A stretch of DNA of 64,000 nucleotides from Bordetella genomosp. 1. GTDB taxonomy: Bacteria > Pseudomonadota > Gammaproteobacteria > Burkholderiales > Burkholderiaceae_B. Location: assembly GCF_002261335.1 (NCBI RefSeq), contig NZ_NEVL01000003.1, forward strand, positions 682,001-746,000, written 5' to 3'. Of this stretch, positions 20,353-35,003 are shown in pieces. Every line of letters begins with the position of its first letter. The first letter of the stretch is position 1. The translations under genes and the position numbers were made by a program. The notes beneath the pieces are model-generated. The model searched no databases, had not been told where the DNA came from, and was given only the letters and a program-made list of their open reading frames with translations.

Positions 20353-23300
20353 ATGGCAAAGCGCGTCGCCGTGGTGGGCATGTCGTTCCGTTTTCCCAGC
20401 ACCAACACCTCCGGATACTGGGAAGACCTGCTGGCCGGCAAGGATCTGGTCACCGAAATCGATCCCGGGCGCTGGTCTCCCGATCGCTATTTTCACCCTT
20501 CCAAGCAAAATCCCGGCACCGCGTATACCCGCTCGGCCGGCACGCTGGGCGACATTTCCGGCTTCGATGCCGATTTCTTCGGTATTTCCCCGCGCGAGGC
20601 CGCAGTCATGGATCCGCAGCAACGGCTGCTGCTGGAGCTGTGCTGGGAGACCATGGAAGACGCGGCGATCGCGCCGCAGCGCCTGCGCGGCAGCGACTGC
20701 GGCGTCTACATCGGGATCTCCACCGCCGACTACGCCTATCGCATGGCGCACGACCTCGACCTGCTCGACAGCAGCGTCGCCACGGGCAACACCAGCAGCA
20801 TCGCCGCCAACCGCCTGTCGTATGTGTTCGACCTGCGCGGCCCCAGCATGGCGGTGGACACGGCGTGCTCCTCGGCCCTGGTGGCGTTTCACCAGGCCGT
20901 GCGCGCGGTCCAGACCGGCGAGTGCACGCACGCCATCGCGGGCGGCGTGAGCCTGCATCTGCACCCCTTCGGCTTCATTACCTTCTCCAAGGCCTCCATG
21001 CTGTCGCCGCGCGGACGCTGCAGCGTGTTCGACGCCTCGGGCGACGGCTATGTGCGCTCAGAGGGCGGCGGGCTGTTTCTCCTGAAGGACTACGAACAGG
21101 CGCTGGCCGACGGCGACCGCATCATCGGCGTGGTGGCCGGCTCGGCGGTGAACACCGATGGCAAGAAGTCCGGCCTCACCGTGCCCAGCCCGCAGGTGCA
21201 GGCCCAGCTGCTGGAGCAGGCCTACGCCCGCGCCGGCATCGACCCGGCCCAGCTCGACTACCTCGAGGCGCACGGCACCGGCACGCGCGTGGGCGACCCG
21301 ATCGAGACCCGTGCCATCGGCATGGCGCTGGGCGCCCGACGCCCCGGCGACCAGCCCCTGCCGATCGGCTCGGTCAAGAGCAACCTGGGCCACCTGGAGG
21401 CCGCCTCGGGCGTGGCCGGGCTGGTCAAGGCGCTGCACGCGCTGCGCCACCGCGAGGTGCCCGCCACCATCGGCATCACCGAGATCAACCCGAATATCGA
21501 CTGCCAGGGTTGGAACATCGACATCGTGACGCAGAACCGCAAGCTGCGCCCTGCCGGCACGCTGACCATCGGCGTGAACTCGTTCGGCTTCGGCGGCGCC
21601 AATGCGCACGTCATCCTGCAGAGCGCGCCGGAACCGGTGCAAGAGGAGCAGCCCGCGCCGGCCCCGGCCGCCGAGCTGCCGGTGGTCGTGAGCGCGCGCA
21701 GCGAGGCCGCCCTGGCCCAGGCGGCGCGCGAGCTGGCCGCGCAGTTGCGCGCACAACCGCAACGCTTTTACGACATCGCCTGGCAGACCAGCCTGCGGCG
21801 CGAGTGGCACGCCCAGCGCGCACTGGTGTTCGGCCGCGATCCCGAGACCGTCGCCACCCTGCTGGAACAGCATGTCGACGGCAATGCGCCGCGCCACCGG
21901 GTGGCCGCCGGCACGGCGGTACCGGATGCCAGCGGCGTGGTGTTCGCCTACTCCGGTAACGGCTCGCAGTGGCTCGGCATGGGCCAGCGCCTCATGCGGC
22001 ACCCGGTGTTCGCCCAGGCCGTCGAGGCGATCGACCAGCACTTCGCGCCGCTGGCGGGCTACCGCCTGGCCGACGAGCTGCAGCGCCAGGACGCGCCCAG
22101 CCGCTACGACAGCACCGAATTCGCCCAGCCCGCACTGTTCGCCGTGCAGGTCGGCATCACCCATCTGCTCGCTACCCGCGGCGTGCGGCCCAGCGCGGTG
22201 CTCGGCCACAGCGTGGGCGAGGTCGCGGCCGCCTGGGCCAGCGGCGCCCTCACCCTGCGCGACGCGGCGCATGTGATCTATCAGCGCAGCCGGCTGCAGG
22301 GCACCACGCGCGGCGTGGGCGCCATGACCGCGGTCGGCATGAACGGCAACGATGCCCAGGCCATGATCGACGCGGCCGGCCTCTCCGACAGCGTGTGCGT
22401 GGCGGGCTACAACAGCGTGCGCGGCGCGACGCTCGCGGGCGACCCCGCGGGCCTGGCCCGCATCGAGGCCGACCTCAAGGCGCGGCGCCAGTTCCAGCGC
22501 CGCCTCGACCTGGACTATGCCTTCCACAGCAGCGCCATGGACGGCATCGAGGCCGAACTGCGCGAGGTGCTGGGAGCCATCGCGCCGCAGCCGGTGTCGG
22601 TGCCCATGATCTCCACGGTAACCGGCGCGCCGGTGGCCGGCCCGGAACTCACGGCGCAGTACTGGTGGGACAACGTGCGCCGGCCGGTGCGCTTCGAGCA
22701 GGCGCTCGCCGCGCTCACCGCGCAGGGCCAGACCCTGTACCTGGAGATCGGCCCGCACCCGGTGCTGCGCGGCTATCTCAACGATGCGCTCAAGGAGGCC
22801 GACCTCAACGGCCGCGCGCTCACGACCGCCGCGCGTGGCGAGGACGACCCGCAGCGCATCCTGGATGCCGCCGCACAGGCCATCGTGGCCGGTGCCGTGC
22901 CGCACTGGCACGCGCTGCTGCCGCGCGCCGGCCGCCCGGTCACACTGCCCGCCTACCCCTGGCAGCGCGAGCGCCACTGGATCGAGGAAACGCCCGAGAG
23001 CCACAGCCTGCTGGGCCGGCACGACCTGCATCCGCTGCTCGGCCATGCGCTGCCGCAGCAGGACTGGCAGTGGGAGTCGCGCCTGGACACCGCGCGCCAC
23101 GCACCGCTGGCCGACCACGTGGTGGGCGAAGCGGCGGTGTTCCCCGGCACCGGCTTTGCCGAGGTCGCGCTGGCCGCGGCCGCCCGCCTGTCGCCGCAGA
23201 GCGCCGTGCTCGACGTCGAGGACCTGGAGATCCGCGTGCCGCTGCTGCTCGACGGCGAACAGGCCCAGCGCCTGCGCACCGAACTCGATCCGGCCGACGC

Positions 23301-32936: not shown

Positions 32937-35003
32937 TCAGCCCCGGTACGACAGACGGGCCTGCCACAGGGCCTGCAGCTTGCGCACCTGGCGCCGGGCA
33001 TAGCCCGCGCGCAGCGAGGCCAGCCGGCCCTGCGCCTGCAGCGCCTCGCGCGTCTGCATGATGCGGGTCAGCACGGCCTCGCAGGTGGTGTAGCCGCGCA
33101 GCTCCCAATCCCAGTACAGCGGATAGCGCAGCAGCGTGCCCGCCACCAGCTGGTCGAGCGAGAGCCGGCGCGCCCGGCGCACGATGCGGCCACGGTCTTC
33201 GGTCAGCCCCCAACCGGCGTAGAAGGGCTGGCCGTAGACCACGACGCGCTTGCCGCGCAACAGCGCGTCGAAGCCGGACAGCGAGGTCATGGTGTGCACC
33301 ACGTCGCAGGCCTCGATGCAGCTGACCACGGAGAGCTCGAGCTCGATGTGGTCGGCATACTCGAGCGCCTCGGCCTGCGCCACCTTGCCGCGCCGGTTGC
33401 GGCTCAGCACGTCGGGATGCGGCTTGTAGACGAGGTAGGCGTCGGGATGCGCCAGCCGGGCCTCGGCCAGCAGCGCGAGGTTGGTGCGCACGCTGTCGCA
33501 GCCGAAACGCACGGAGGCGTCGTCCTCGACCTGGCCGGGCACCAGCACCACTTCCCTGCCCTGCGCATCCCAGCCGGCCGGCTCGGGCTGCGCCACGTTG
33601 TACTTGGTGATGCCGTGCGCCACGATGAAGGCGCGGATCCGCTGCGCGGCCGCGCAGTCGCCCTGCGTGAAGGTGCCGTAGTTGAGCTCGCGCTCCAGGT
33701 CCGACTCGCGGCGCGGATCGAAATAGATGCCGCTGCCGTCCAGCGCCAGGCTGAGCGGCTTGATCAGGTCGGAACCCAGCCCGACCGAGCGCATGAAGCC
33801 GTCTTCGATCGCCACCAGCGCCGCGCCGCTCTGCTCGGCGAGTTCGGCCAGGCCGGCGGGCGGCTCCGCGCCCCAGAACGCCAGCGCCTCGCCCGCCTTG
33901 GGCGCGAACGCCGCGGCCTGGGTGGCATCCTCGGCGCTCAGCACCCGGCCCGGATAGGGCGAGAGCATGGGCGAGAGATGCGCCGACTTCCAGCGCCGCG
34001 TGCCCACCAGGATGGTGCGGCTGGGCATGCGCGCGGCCATGGCGCGCTGGCGCACCAGCCAGTCGATCACGTCGAAGATCGTGCCGCGACCATGCGACAG
34101 CGGGTCGATGTAGCGCGTGTAGTGGAAGTAGGCCGCCGCGAACAGCTCCTCCAGCGTGCGGGTGCGCGTGCGCCGTTTGCACTGCTGGCGGTCGTCGGTC
34201 AGGCCCCAGCCCGCATACCAGGGCATGCCGAAGCAGGTCACGGGCTTGCCCGCGAGCAGCGCCTCGAAGCCCATCTGCGAGCTCACCACGTACACGTGAT
34301 CCATTTGCTCGATCAGGCCGAGCGCGTTCATGTCGGTGTCCAGCAGCACCACGTCGGCGTCCGGCACCACGTCCGACAGGTAGCCGGCCTTGGCGCCCGC
34401 CACCACTTCCGGATGGGTCTTGACGTGGATCAGCGCGCCGGGATGCTCGGCGCGCGCGGCGTCCAGCATGCAGGCAAAGGTCTCGGCGTCGGCCAGCCCG
34501 AGCGTCACGCTCATGTCGCCCTGGGTCTGGTCGACCACCAGCACGCGCTTGCGTCCCTGGGCCGGCGGCAGTTCCGGCGGCGCGAACGGCGTGTGGTTGT
34601 ACTTGGACAGGCGATGCGAGCGCACGCGCGAGATCGCGTCGGGCACCGCATCGTCCAGGTCCGCGAGCAGGTCGGCGTCGCTGGCGAGCATGGCTTCCAG
34701 CTCGGAGGGCCGGGTGGCGTCGTAATAGATGCCGAGCCGGTCCACCACCAGCGACAGCGTGGGGCTGCCCTGCCCCGTGCCGAACGAGCGCAGGAAGCCG
34801 TCTTCCAGCGCCAGGTACGGCAGGTTCAGGCGCGCGGCACGTCGCCGCGCGCCTTGCGCCGTGGGTTTGGCGCCCCACCCCGCGATGGCCTGCAGCCGGC
34901 GCCGCGCCGCCGGCCGCCAGGGCCGGAAGCGCGTGACCGCCGCACCCAGCAACTCGGCCAGGAGCGGGATGCGTGCGATACCGCTGGAGTGGATCTCGAT
35001 CAT
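32937..35003 (-). CDS. kpsC: Capsule polysaccharide beta-Kdo transferase KpsC (WcbA-like)
   Basis: This 688-residue protein, near the usual KpsC length, is built from two related glycosyltransferase domains in tandem. Each repeats the same motif set: LEDGFLRSFGTG and IEDGFMRSVGLGS, GIYYDATRPSELE and GIYFDPRRESDLE, VKTHPEV and YKPHPDVL, FGMPWYAGWGLTDDR and YGQPFYAGWGLTEDR. The two halves of KpsC add alternating Kdo residues to extend the poly-beta-Kdo linker. The start overlaps the epimerase stop (ATGA). It acts after KpsS at the cytoplasmic face. Full length with both active sites intact as far as motifs show. Confidence 0.94.
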   Translation of the reverse strand: MIEIHSSGIARIPLLAELLGAAVTRFRPWRPAARRRLQAIAGWGAKPTAQGARRRAARLNLPYLALEDGFLRSFGTGQGSPTLSLVVDRLGIYYDATRPSELEAMLASDADLLADLDDAVPDAISRVRSHRLSKYNHTPFAPPELPPAQGRKRVLVVDQTQGDMSVTLGLADAETFACMLDAARAEHPGALIHVKTHPEVVAGAKAGYLSDVVPDADVVLLDTDMNALGLIEQMDHVYVVSSQMGFEALLAGKPVTCFGMPWYAGWGLTDDRQQCKRRTRTRTLEELFAAAYFHYTRYIDPLSHGRGTIFDVIDWLVRQRAMAARMPSRTILVGTRRWKSAHLSPMLSPYPGRVLSAEDATQAAAFAPKAGEALAFWGAEPPAGLAELAEQSGAALVAIEDGFMRSVGLGSDLIKPLSLALDGSGIYFDPRRESDLERELNYGTFTQGDCAAAQRIRAFIVAHGITKYNVAQPEPAGWDAQGREVVLVPGQVEDDASVRFGCDSVRTNLALLAEARLAHPDAYLVYKPHPDVLSRNRRGKVAQAEALEYADHIELELSVVSCIEACDVVHTMTSLSGFDALLRGKRVVVYGQPFYAGWGLTEDRGRIVRRARRLSLDQLVAGTLLRYPLYWDWELRGYTTCEAVLTRIMQTREALQAQGRLASLRAGYARRQVRKLQALWQARLSYRG

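Follow-up and report, generated by a model that had tools for sequence, protein, structure and literature searches.

A Bordetella capsule locus of the rkp-1/wcb type may supply a sphingoid-type lipid anchor to a dedicated KpsS

Introduction

To which lipid is a capsule attached when its locus carries a lipid pathway of its own? The question is raised by a 64,000-nucleotide stretch of the Bordetella genomosp. 1 genome (contig NZ_NEVL01000003.1, positions 682,001 to 746,000), called the window here and numbered from its first letter. In it, genes for a polyketide synthase (PKS) and an alpha-oxoamine synthase (AOS) converge on genes for the capsule proteins KpsS and KpsC. The original prediction was that these genes supply a new type of capsule anchor, a sphinganine-like phosphoglycerolipid that KpsS uses in place of lyso-phosphatidylglycerol. 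Novelty of the locus type has to be given up, as rkp-1 has long been credited with providing a lipid carrier or anchor; the chemistry may still be new. In other words, the gene set is the known rkp-1/wcb cassette, whose genes have been known since the 1990s. The sphingoid reading nevertheless appears to move from a guess to a testable hypothesis, a step supported by the phylogeny of KpsS, which is the new evidence.

A lipid pathway converging on capsule genes

All of the genes named in the original prediction are present in one locus with open frames:

20353-27930, + strand: iterative reducing type I PKS (RkpA/WcbR type), 2525 amino acids, recognized by Pfam domains and motifs
27942-29291, + strand: AOS (RkpG/WcbT type), recognized by family matches, with a clade of its own and invariant catalytic residues
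29400-30956, - strand: LtaS-like membrane phosphotransferase (RkpI/WcbQ type), GTG start, PF00884
30949-31716, - strand: short-chain dehydrogenase/reductase (SDR; RkpH/WcbP type), family match, residues S141, Y154 and K158
31713-32933, - strand: KpsS-family transferase of 3-deoxy-D-manno-octulosonic acid (Kdo; RkpJ/WcbO type), PF05159 286 bits, NF050054 277.5 bits
32937-35003, - strand: KpsC-family Kdo transferase, full length, two PF05159 stretches

The open reading frame (ORF) at 30953-31576 was discarded as the SDR, being in the wrong frame. The AOS gene starts 11 bases past the PKS stop on the same (+) strand. A (-) run of genes for TviC, KpsC, KpsS, SDR and the LtaS-like enzyme converges on this pair, and its genes are coupled as had been claimed. 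The coordinates give a 4-base overlap for TviC/KpsC, a 3-base gap for KpsC/KpsS, a 4-base overlap for KpsS/SDR and an 8-base overlap for SDR/LtaS.

How could these enzymes make an anchor? In the proposed pathway the PKS would assemble and reduce a long chain, tethered to its own acyl carrier protein (ACP), and, having no thioesterase, would hand the chain to the AOS. The AOS would condense it with an amino acid by pyridoxal phosphate chemistry into a 2-amino-3-ketone, and the SDR would reduce this ketone. Sequence features support these steps. For the steps that follow we infer that the amino acid would be serine and the product a sphinganine-like base. The LtaS-like enzyme would then put phosphoglycerol, or less likely phosphoethanolamine, on the free hydroxyl, and the resulting single-chain phosphoglycerolipid would mimic lyso-phosphatidylglycerol. 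This step would precede the action of KpsS, a dedicated subfamily of which would place the first Kdo on the lipid. KpsC would extend it, a Vi-like polymer would be joined on, and KpsMT would export the product. Least certain in this proposal are the addition of phosphoglycerol and the point at which it occurs. Taken whole, that the locus is an rkp-1/wcb-type cassette making a sphingoid-type phosphoglycerolipid anchor for a dedicated KpsS is a proposition on which we find belief and doubt evenly balanced.

A KpsS branch that accompanies the lipid pathway

Two surveys asked how often the AOS and KpsS occur together. The order survey covered 300 genomes (AOS at 44% identity or more, next matches at 39% or less; KpsS at E <= 1e-15), and the phylum survey covered 398 (AOS at E <= 1e-110; KpsS at E <= 1e-30). 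The cuts for the AOS, the LtaS-like enzyme (E <= 1e-60) and the SDR (at least 266 bits, next score 218) were chosen with the scores in view. In the order, the AOS was found in 19 genomes, KpsS in 25 and both in 14, so that KpsS was present in 14 of the 19 AOS genomes as compared to 11 of the 281 others (Fisher p 1e-13, shared ancestry not corrected for). Likewise, the phylum had the AOS in 24 genomes, KpsS in 58 and both in 15 (15/24 AOS genomes and 43/374 others; Fisher p 2e-8, again uncorrected for ancestry). The two co-occur even when they lie 126 kb (G152) or 642 kb (G207) apart.

Further evidence came from KpsS trees. A quick survey tree of 84 rows was built from order and phylum genomes and E. 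coli K1, excluding named loci that had been chosen by their AOS. It covered 24 of the 25 order and all 58 phylum KpsS genomes, with two rows each from three genomes; G200, partial and with one stop, was left out. A clade of 32 rows (support 95 in the Shimodaira-Hasegawa-like approximate likelihood-ratio test, SH-aLRT) held 29 of the 30 rows from AOS-bearing genomes. It also held all three rows labelled SPT+LtaS+, from genomes with a serine palmitoyltransferase (SPT) described below, and none of the 51 other rows. The AOS label takes 3 changes on this tree, as compared to 24.7 when shuffled. The same picture came from a careful 69-row tree that includes named loci, with 39/40 AOS-bearing rows, 3/3 SPT+LtaS+ rows and 0/26 others in the clade (support 99/96). 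KpsS of E. coli K1 strain S88 falls outside the clade in the careful tree and among the 51 outsiders in the survey tree. The split is not mere taxonomy, because the window's own family falls both inside (G138, G207, G237) and outside (G053). These trees suggest that one KpsS branch evolved together with the PKS-AOS lipid pathway, and they lend support to the predicted use of the pathway product by KpsS.

The NF050054 cut-off was tried as a separator of KpsS types and dropped: the window KpsS falls short of it (600 bits), and so do all 398 phylum genomes, which makes it of little use. No solved relative of the window KpsS was found at E <= 0.01.

KpsC served as a control, although only a fair one, with fewer rows than KpsS and a different set of them. 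Its 35-row tree, which has low support, takes 7 changes as compared to 10.8 in shuffles, and 5 of 500 shuffles were as low. KpsC, one step off the lipid, splits by pathway much less cleanly than KpsS. Some AOS genomes carry half-length KpsC proteins of 339 to 373 amino acids (L042:8226-9347, L044:2419-3441, L047:12842-13861), which correspond to the C-terminal half of KpsC alone.

Does the KpsS clade reflect acceptor choice, or was the whole cassette simply inherited together? KpsS, SDR and LtaS-like genes form one gene run in many loci and KpsC also clusters to some degree, as co-inheritance would have it. However, in clade members G207 and G152 KpsS is distant from the AOS (642 and 126 kb), the KpsC tree differs, and SPT genomes that have no PKS-AOS pair join the KpsS clade. 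We regard co-inheritance as somewhat unlikely.

An ordinary SPT apparently in place of the PKS and AOS

Three KpsS genomes that lack an RkpG-type AOS (G583, G595 and G603) have an LtaS gene adjoining kpsS. All three carry an SPT above the curated cut-off. A search of 80 genomes gave such an SPT in seven, four of them among the 46 KpsS-only genomes, and the fourth of these is G399. KpsS-only genomes number 53 in total, of which 40 were profile-searched for LtaS and SDR and 46 for SPT; in G595 and G603 the LtaS gene is known by locus only. The SPT of G583 sits with an acyl-AMP ligase, a reductase and an ACP, and in G595 a ligase, an ACP and the SPT were found. In some lineages the PKS and AOS seem to have given way to an ordinary SPT operon. 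This apparent replacement is the strongest hint of a sphingoid base as the common product. It is a hint from three genomes in two families and mostly post hoc, since the SPT+LtaS+ label was made after the first KpsS tree, G595 was picked for the position of its KpsS inside the AOS clade and G583 for its LtaS match. Only G603, of the same family as G583, was a forward check: its SPT prompted the examination, which turned up an LtaS gene adjoining kpsS.

The window genome itself was considered for a separate SPT, and none was found above the cut-off. In E. coli UTI89, an acyl-AMP ligase, a reductase-like protein, an ACP and an SPT lie together between glc and lptG/hyb genes (L202:24177-28264) and are annotated in RefSeq.

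The PKS, the AOS and the amino acid

A Pfam scan of the PKS matched ketosynthase (KS), acyltransferase (AT), dehydratase (DH), enoylreductase (ER), ketoreductase (KR) and ACP domains, the ACP being the last, and found no thioesterase domain. The motifs seen include the KS cysteine, AT GHSVGE, those of ER and KR, and ACP GLDSL. At the usual DH site the strict HxxxGxxxxP pattern is unmatched, the residues there being DHVVGEAAVFPG. The PKS adjoins the AOS in 17 of the 18 order-level AOS loci examined, and such conservation argues that the adjacency is more than chance.

What does the AOS accept? RkpG-type AOSs form a single 48-row clade (SH-aLRT 100, quick tree), separate from 11 SPTs, KBL and BioF. 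The closest named member is from Bordetella pseudohinzii, at 77% identity. Catalytic residues H191, D264, H267, K299 and R423 are invariant in the 48 clade rows and the 11 SPTs. Seven planctomycete loci encode the AOS as part of a larger ORF of 1134 to 1383 amino acids, and the two that were scanned (L125:1742-5185 and L150:2889-7040) are fusions of an acyl-AMP ligase (FAAL), a carrier protein and an AOS. Five planctomycete AOS loci have a neighbouring gene in common; the one copy that was scanned (L125:5764-6972) encodes a BBP7 beta-barrel protein. Three bacterial SPTs that have been tested preferred acyl-ACP, and RkpF is named in connection with capsules as a specialized ACP (PMC9386255). 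The acyl donor of the AOS is very likely carrier-bound, because the ACP-ended PKS adjoins it, carrier-AOS fusions occur and tested SPTs prefer acyl-ACP. The predicted release of the PKS chain onto an amino acid draws good support from the missing thioesterase, the PKS-AOS adjacency, the fusions and the conserved catalytic residues.

The amino acid is not fixed by sequence, because the AOS passes none of the curated cut-offs for SPT, KBL and BioF. It scores 264.6 bits with SPT model NF047599 (cut-off 500) and 283.2 bits with NF047600 (cut-off 640). Use of glycine or alanine, to give an aminoalcohol without the C1 hydroxyl (1-deoxysphinganine-like) or a 1-amino-2-alcohol, would fit the separate position of the AOS clade. 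It would also fit S130 and N/D192, which mark the clade (48/48 each) at sites where 11/11 SPTs have G and A, and the best NCBIfam score, which is for bioF (337 bits, under the cut-off). Yet the top solved-structure match of the AOS is an SPT. Furthermore, Y105, which also marks the clade, is shared with 4 of the 11 SPTs and absent from E. coli KBL and BioF, and an SPT seems to stand in for the AOS in three genomes. On this evidence glycine or alanine is unlikely, with serine still preferred in the proposed pathway.

Possible acyltransferases lie in or beside some runs of AOS, SDR and KpsS genes. Pfam assigns L071:10617-11297 to GNAT, and L063:8391-9221 and L066:11032-11841 to a CAT fold (2-oxoacid_dh); L051:5133-5777 is GNAT-like by eye. 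Such enzymes may N-acylate an amino lipid. They were not retained as pathway members, their distribution near AOS genes being too scattered.

The SDR and the LtaS-like enzyme

SDR and LtaS-like orthologues track the AOS and not KpsS alone. Window proteins were used as queries in 60 genomes (19 AOS, 11 KpsS-only and 30 with neither). The LtaS query (E <= 1e-30) matched 10/19, 0/11 and 0/30 of these, with weak matches (E 1e-10) in G202 and G004. The SDR query (at least 45% identity) matched 11/19, 0/11 and 0/30, with weak matches (37 to 39%) in two genomes, G058 and the AOS genome G152. Profiles found LtaS in 21 of 40 AOS genomes and 1 of 40 KpsS-only genomes, plus a weak unlinked match in G587, and the SDR in 25/40 and 0/40. 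Some of the AOS genomes searched had also contributed rows to the profiles, a bias towards AOS genomes from which the single-protein searches are free. With LtaS in only one of 40 KpsS-only genomes, the idea that it tracks KpsS alone was dropped. The SDR is present in 19 of the 21 LtaS genomes, which fits the pathway order AOS, SDR, LtaS.

The SDR residues S141, Y154 and K158 are invariant in 16 rows, and no solved relative was found at E <= 1e-25. The nearest solved relatives of the LtaS-like enzyme are GacH, LtaP and LtaS, and its sulfatase-type active site (E231, T273, H391, D454, H455) is invariant in 15 rows. Its score with the curated LtaS model NF053595 is 28.7 bits, below the cut-off of 970.

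When does the LtaS-like enzyme act? LtaS relatives are active outside the cytoplasm and KpsS inside, and GacH modifies a polysaccharide. One alternative model is that the PKS-AOS-SDR product is itself the anchor and KpsS puts Kdo directly on its hydroxyl. The LtaS-like enzyme would then act in the periplasm after export, adding phosphoglycerol or phosphoethanolamine to the lipid or the capsule. The extracytoplasmic action of the solved relatives favours this model. So does the failure to find LtaS in 19 of 40 AOS genomes, when the KpsS proteins of such genomes (G160, G217, G079, G280, G152) sit in the same clade. However, LtaS tracks the AOS and SDR and not KpsS, the window LtaS gene overlaps the SDR gene, which overlaps the KpsS gene, and LtaS is present without a KpsS match in G285, G061 and G107. 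Direct glycosylation is, in our judgement, quite unlikely.

Which way does the LtaS-like enzyme face? A TopPred-like positive-inside scan placed its catalytic domain inward in 12 of 15 rows, by a method that was wrong on one of three E. coli controls (OpgB; EptA and LapC were right) and on 8 of 14 order EptA proteins. It also put two LtaS-like paralogues inward, alongside its failed EptA controls. The OpgB and EptA failures leave a cytoplasmic-side topology no more than a suggestion. In 30 rows, loop 1-2 carries 2-5 Lys/Arg and loop 4-5 carries 0-1, as compared to 0-2 and 3-6 in nine five-helix EptA controls. An LtaS-like family with inverted topology is possible but unproven.

Weighing the proposal

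Several results weigh against a sphingoid-type anchor used by a dedicated KpsS. AOS genome G365 has a KpsS outside the clade (its AOS is of a distant type, at 42% identity, with no PKS match alongside in L213). In G399 an SPT is present without an LtaS match, and KpsS again falls outside. An SPT operon also occurs in E. coli UTI89, yet the E. coli K1 S88 KpsS is an outsider. KpsC, too, clusters by pathway beyond most shuffles. The AOS scores below the curated SPT cut-offs, which leaves serine a presumed substrate. At the cut-offs used, LtaS was not found in 19/40 and the SDR not in 15/40 AOS genomes. There was no KpsS match in 5/19 order and 9/24 phylum AOS genomes, and G107, G061 and G285 have the AOS, SDR and LtaS with no such match. 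The extracytoplasmic action of LtaS relatives, noted above, also sits poorly with a cytoplasmic KpsS. Finally, the capsule of S. meliloti 1021 reportedly has a phospholipid anchor, known to us from a title, and rkp-1 is said to be needed there for capsule export. That report, the phosphatidylglycerol lipids of E. coli-type KpsS and the export role ascribed to rkp-1 (the last two cited below) would suit a capsule on ordinary lyso-phosphatidylglycerol, with the PKS-AOS lipid a separate carrier or membrane lipid for export only, but KpsS, which touches the lipid, splits by pathway presence and KpsC much less, and we consider this quite unlikely as well.

The proposal of a sphingoid-type anchor can be stated more broadly: some ABC-dependent capsules of Gram-negative bacteria would sit on a sphingoid-type phosphoglycerolipid instead of lyso-phosphatidylglycerol, fed by a PKS that an SPT can replace and used by a distinct KpsS. 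The kpsS sequence alone would then predict the anchor, and the LtaS-like enzyme would perhaps act on the cytoplasmic face of the membrane. This broader form is tentative, and we lean modestly against it. If the KpsS subfamily does use a sphingoid lipid, a further anchor chemistry would exist that can be read from sequence. The rkp-1/wcb genes would gain a concrete chemical role, bacterial sphingolipid enzymes would be tied to capsule assembly, and the old question of the rkp-1/wcb lipid would become testable.

Neighbouring capsule genes

Besides TviC, in the (-) run itself, further capsule genes for polymer synthesis and export lie upstream on that strand:

35000-36037, - strand: TviC-like UDP-GlcNAcA 4-epimerase, NF011728 474.6 bits (cut-off 760 not reached)
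36049-37338, - strand: TviB-like UDP-GlcNAc dehydrogenase, NF011729 699.7 bits (cut-off 592 passed)
37360-38700, - strand: outer-membrane polysaccharide export protein (OPX), Poly_export and SLBB
39390-41564, - strand: TviE-like glycosyltransferase, NF011726 1160.9 bits (cut-off 733 passed)
41516-42832, - strand: KpsE-like inner-membrane export protein, TIGR01010 222 bits (under cut-off)
42726-44138, - strand: ORF with a KpsT-like ATPase in its 3' part, start provisional, ABC_tran residues 255-298
43463-44320, - strand: KpsM-like ABC permease, PF01061, NF050053 116 bits (under cut-off)

The polymer is probably Vi-like, because the TviB and TviE matches exceed curated cut-offs. Vi-type polymer genes (TviB and TviE, with TviC under its cut-off) thus stand alongside KpsS and KpsC in one locus, and polymer and anchor modules may recombine between capsule loci. 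Two large proteins beside the capsule locus, at 45877-48030 (717 amino acids) and 48209-50389 (726 amino acids), match no Pfam family above cut-off.

Comparison with known systems

The closest known system is rkp-1, which has the same gene set as the window. In Rhizobium lusitanum (L148) and another Rhizobiales locus (L153) the order is PKS-AOS-SDR-LtaS-KpsS, fitting rkpA, G, H, I and J, which upholds the predicted kinship with wcb/rkp loci. The window differs in having two convergent units and adjoining Vi-like polymer genes. Among the 80 best named AOS loci, a PKS match was found in 59 and a KpsS match in 17, many of the stretches being short. The wcb capsule cluster of Burkholderia comprises wcbR, wcbT, wcbP, wcbQ, wcbO and wcbA. 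PKS, AOS and LtaS homologues occur in Burkholderia loci (L110, L120, L122) and the SDR in G285, which has an AOS that clusters with those of Burkholderia and Ralstonia. In G285 (L204, L074) the PKS, AOS, SDR and LtaS genes lie beside other glycosyltransferases. Unlike the window, the stretches examined there have no KpsS or KpsC match, and whole-genome searches gave none for KpsS either. One paper considers the wcb and rkp clusters to be orthologues of each other (PMC3908369), and reviews regard rkp-1 as the source of a lipid that carries or anchors the capsule (PMC3557214), one review adding that it is needed for capsule production or export. Sphingoid chemistry for the rkp-1/wcb anchor was not found in the literature searched, which mostly lacked subscription papers.

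E. coli group 2/3 capsules, which are ABC-transporter-dependent and anchored on lyso-phosphatidylglycerol, have KpsS, KpsC, KpsM, KpsE and OPX homologues in common with the window. E. coli-type KpsS uses phosphatidylglycerol lipids (PMC7694667, PMC12220298, PMC11041684), and ABC-dependent capsules are described as sharing one conserved phosphatidylglycerol-Kdo terminus at their lipid end, the Vi antigen excepted (PMC12220298, PMC11041684). In contrast, the window KpsS lies in another clade than that of E. coli K1, and the window has an extra lipid pathway.

The bacterial sphingolipid pathway (SPT, AcpR, AasR and a reductase) follows the same logic of a carrier-bound acyl chain, an AOS and a reductase (PMC9386255), whereas in the window the chain would come from a dedicated PKS and the AOS scores below SPT cut-offs. 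The Vi antigen of Salmonella Typhi, whose anchor is reported to be a diacyl-HexNAc made by VexE (PMC12220298), shares with the window TviB and TviE polymer genes above cut-off. The window differs from it in carrying KpsS and KpsC.

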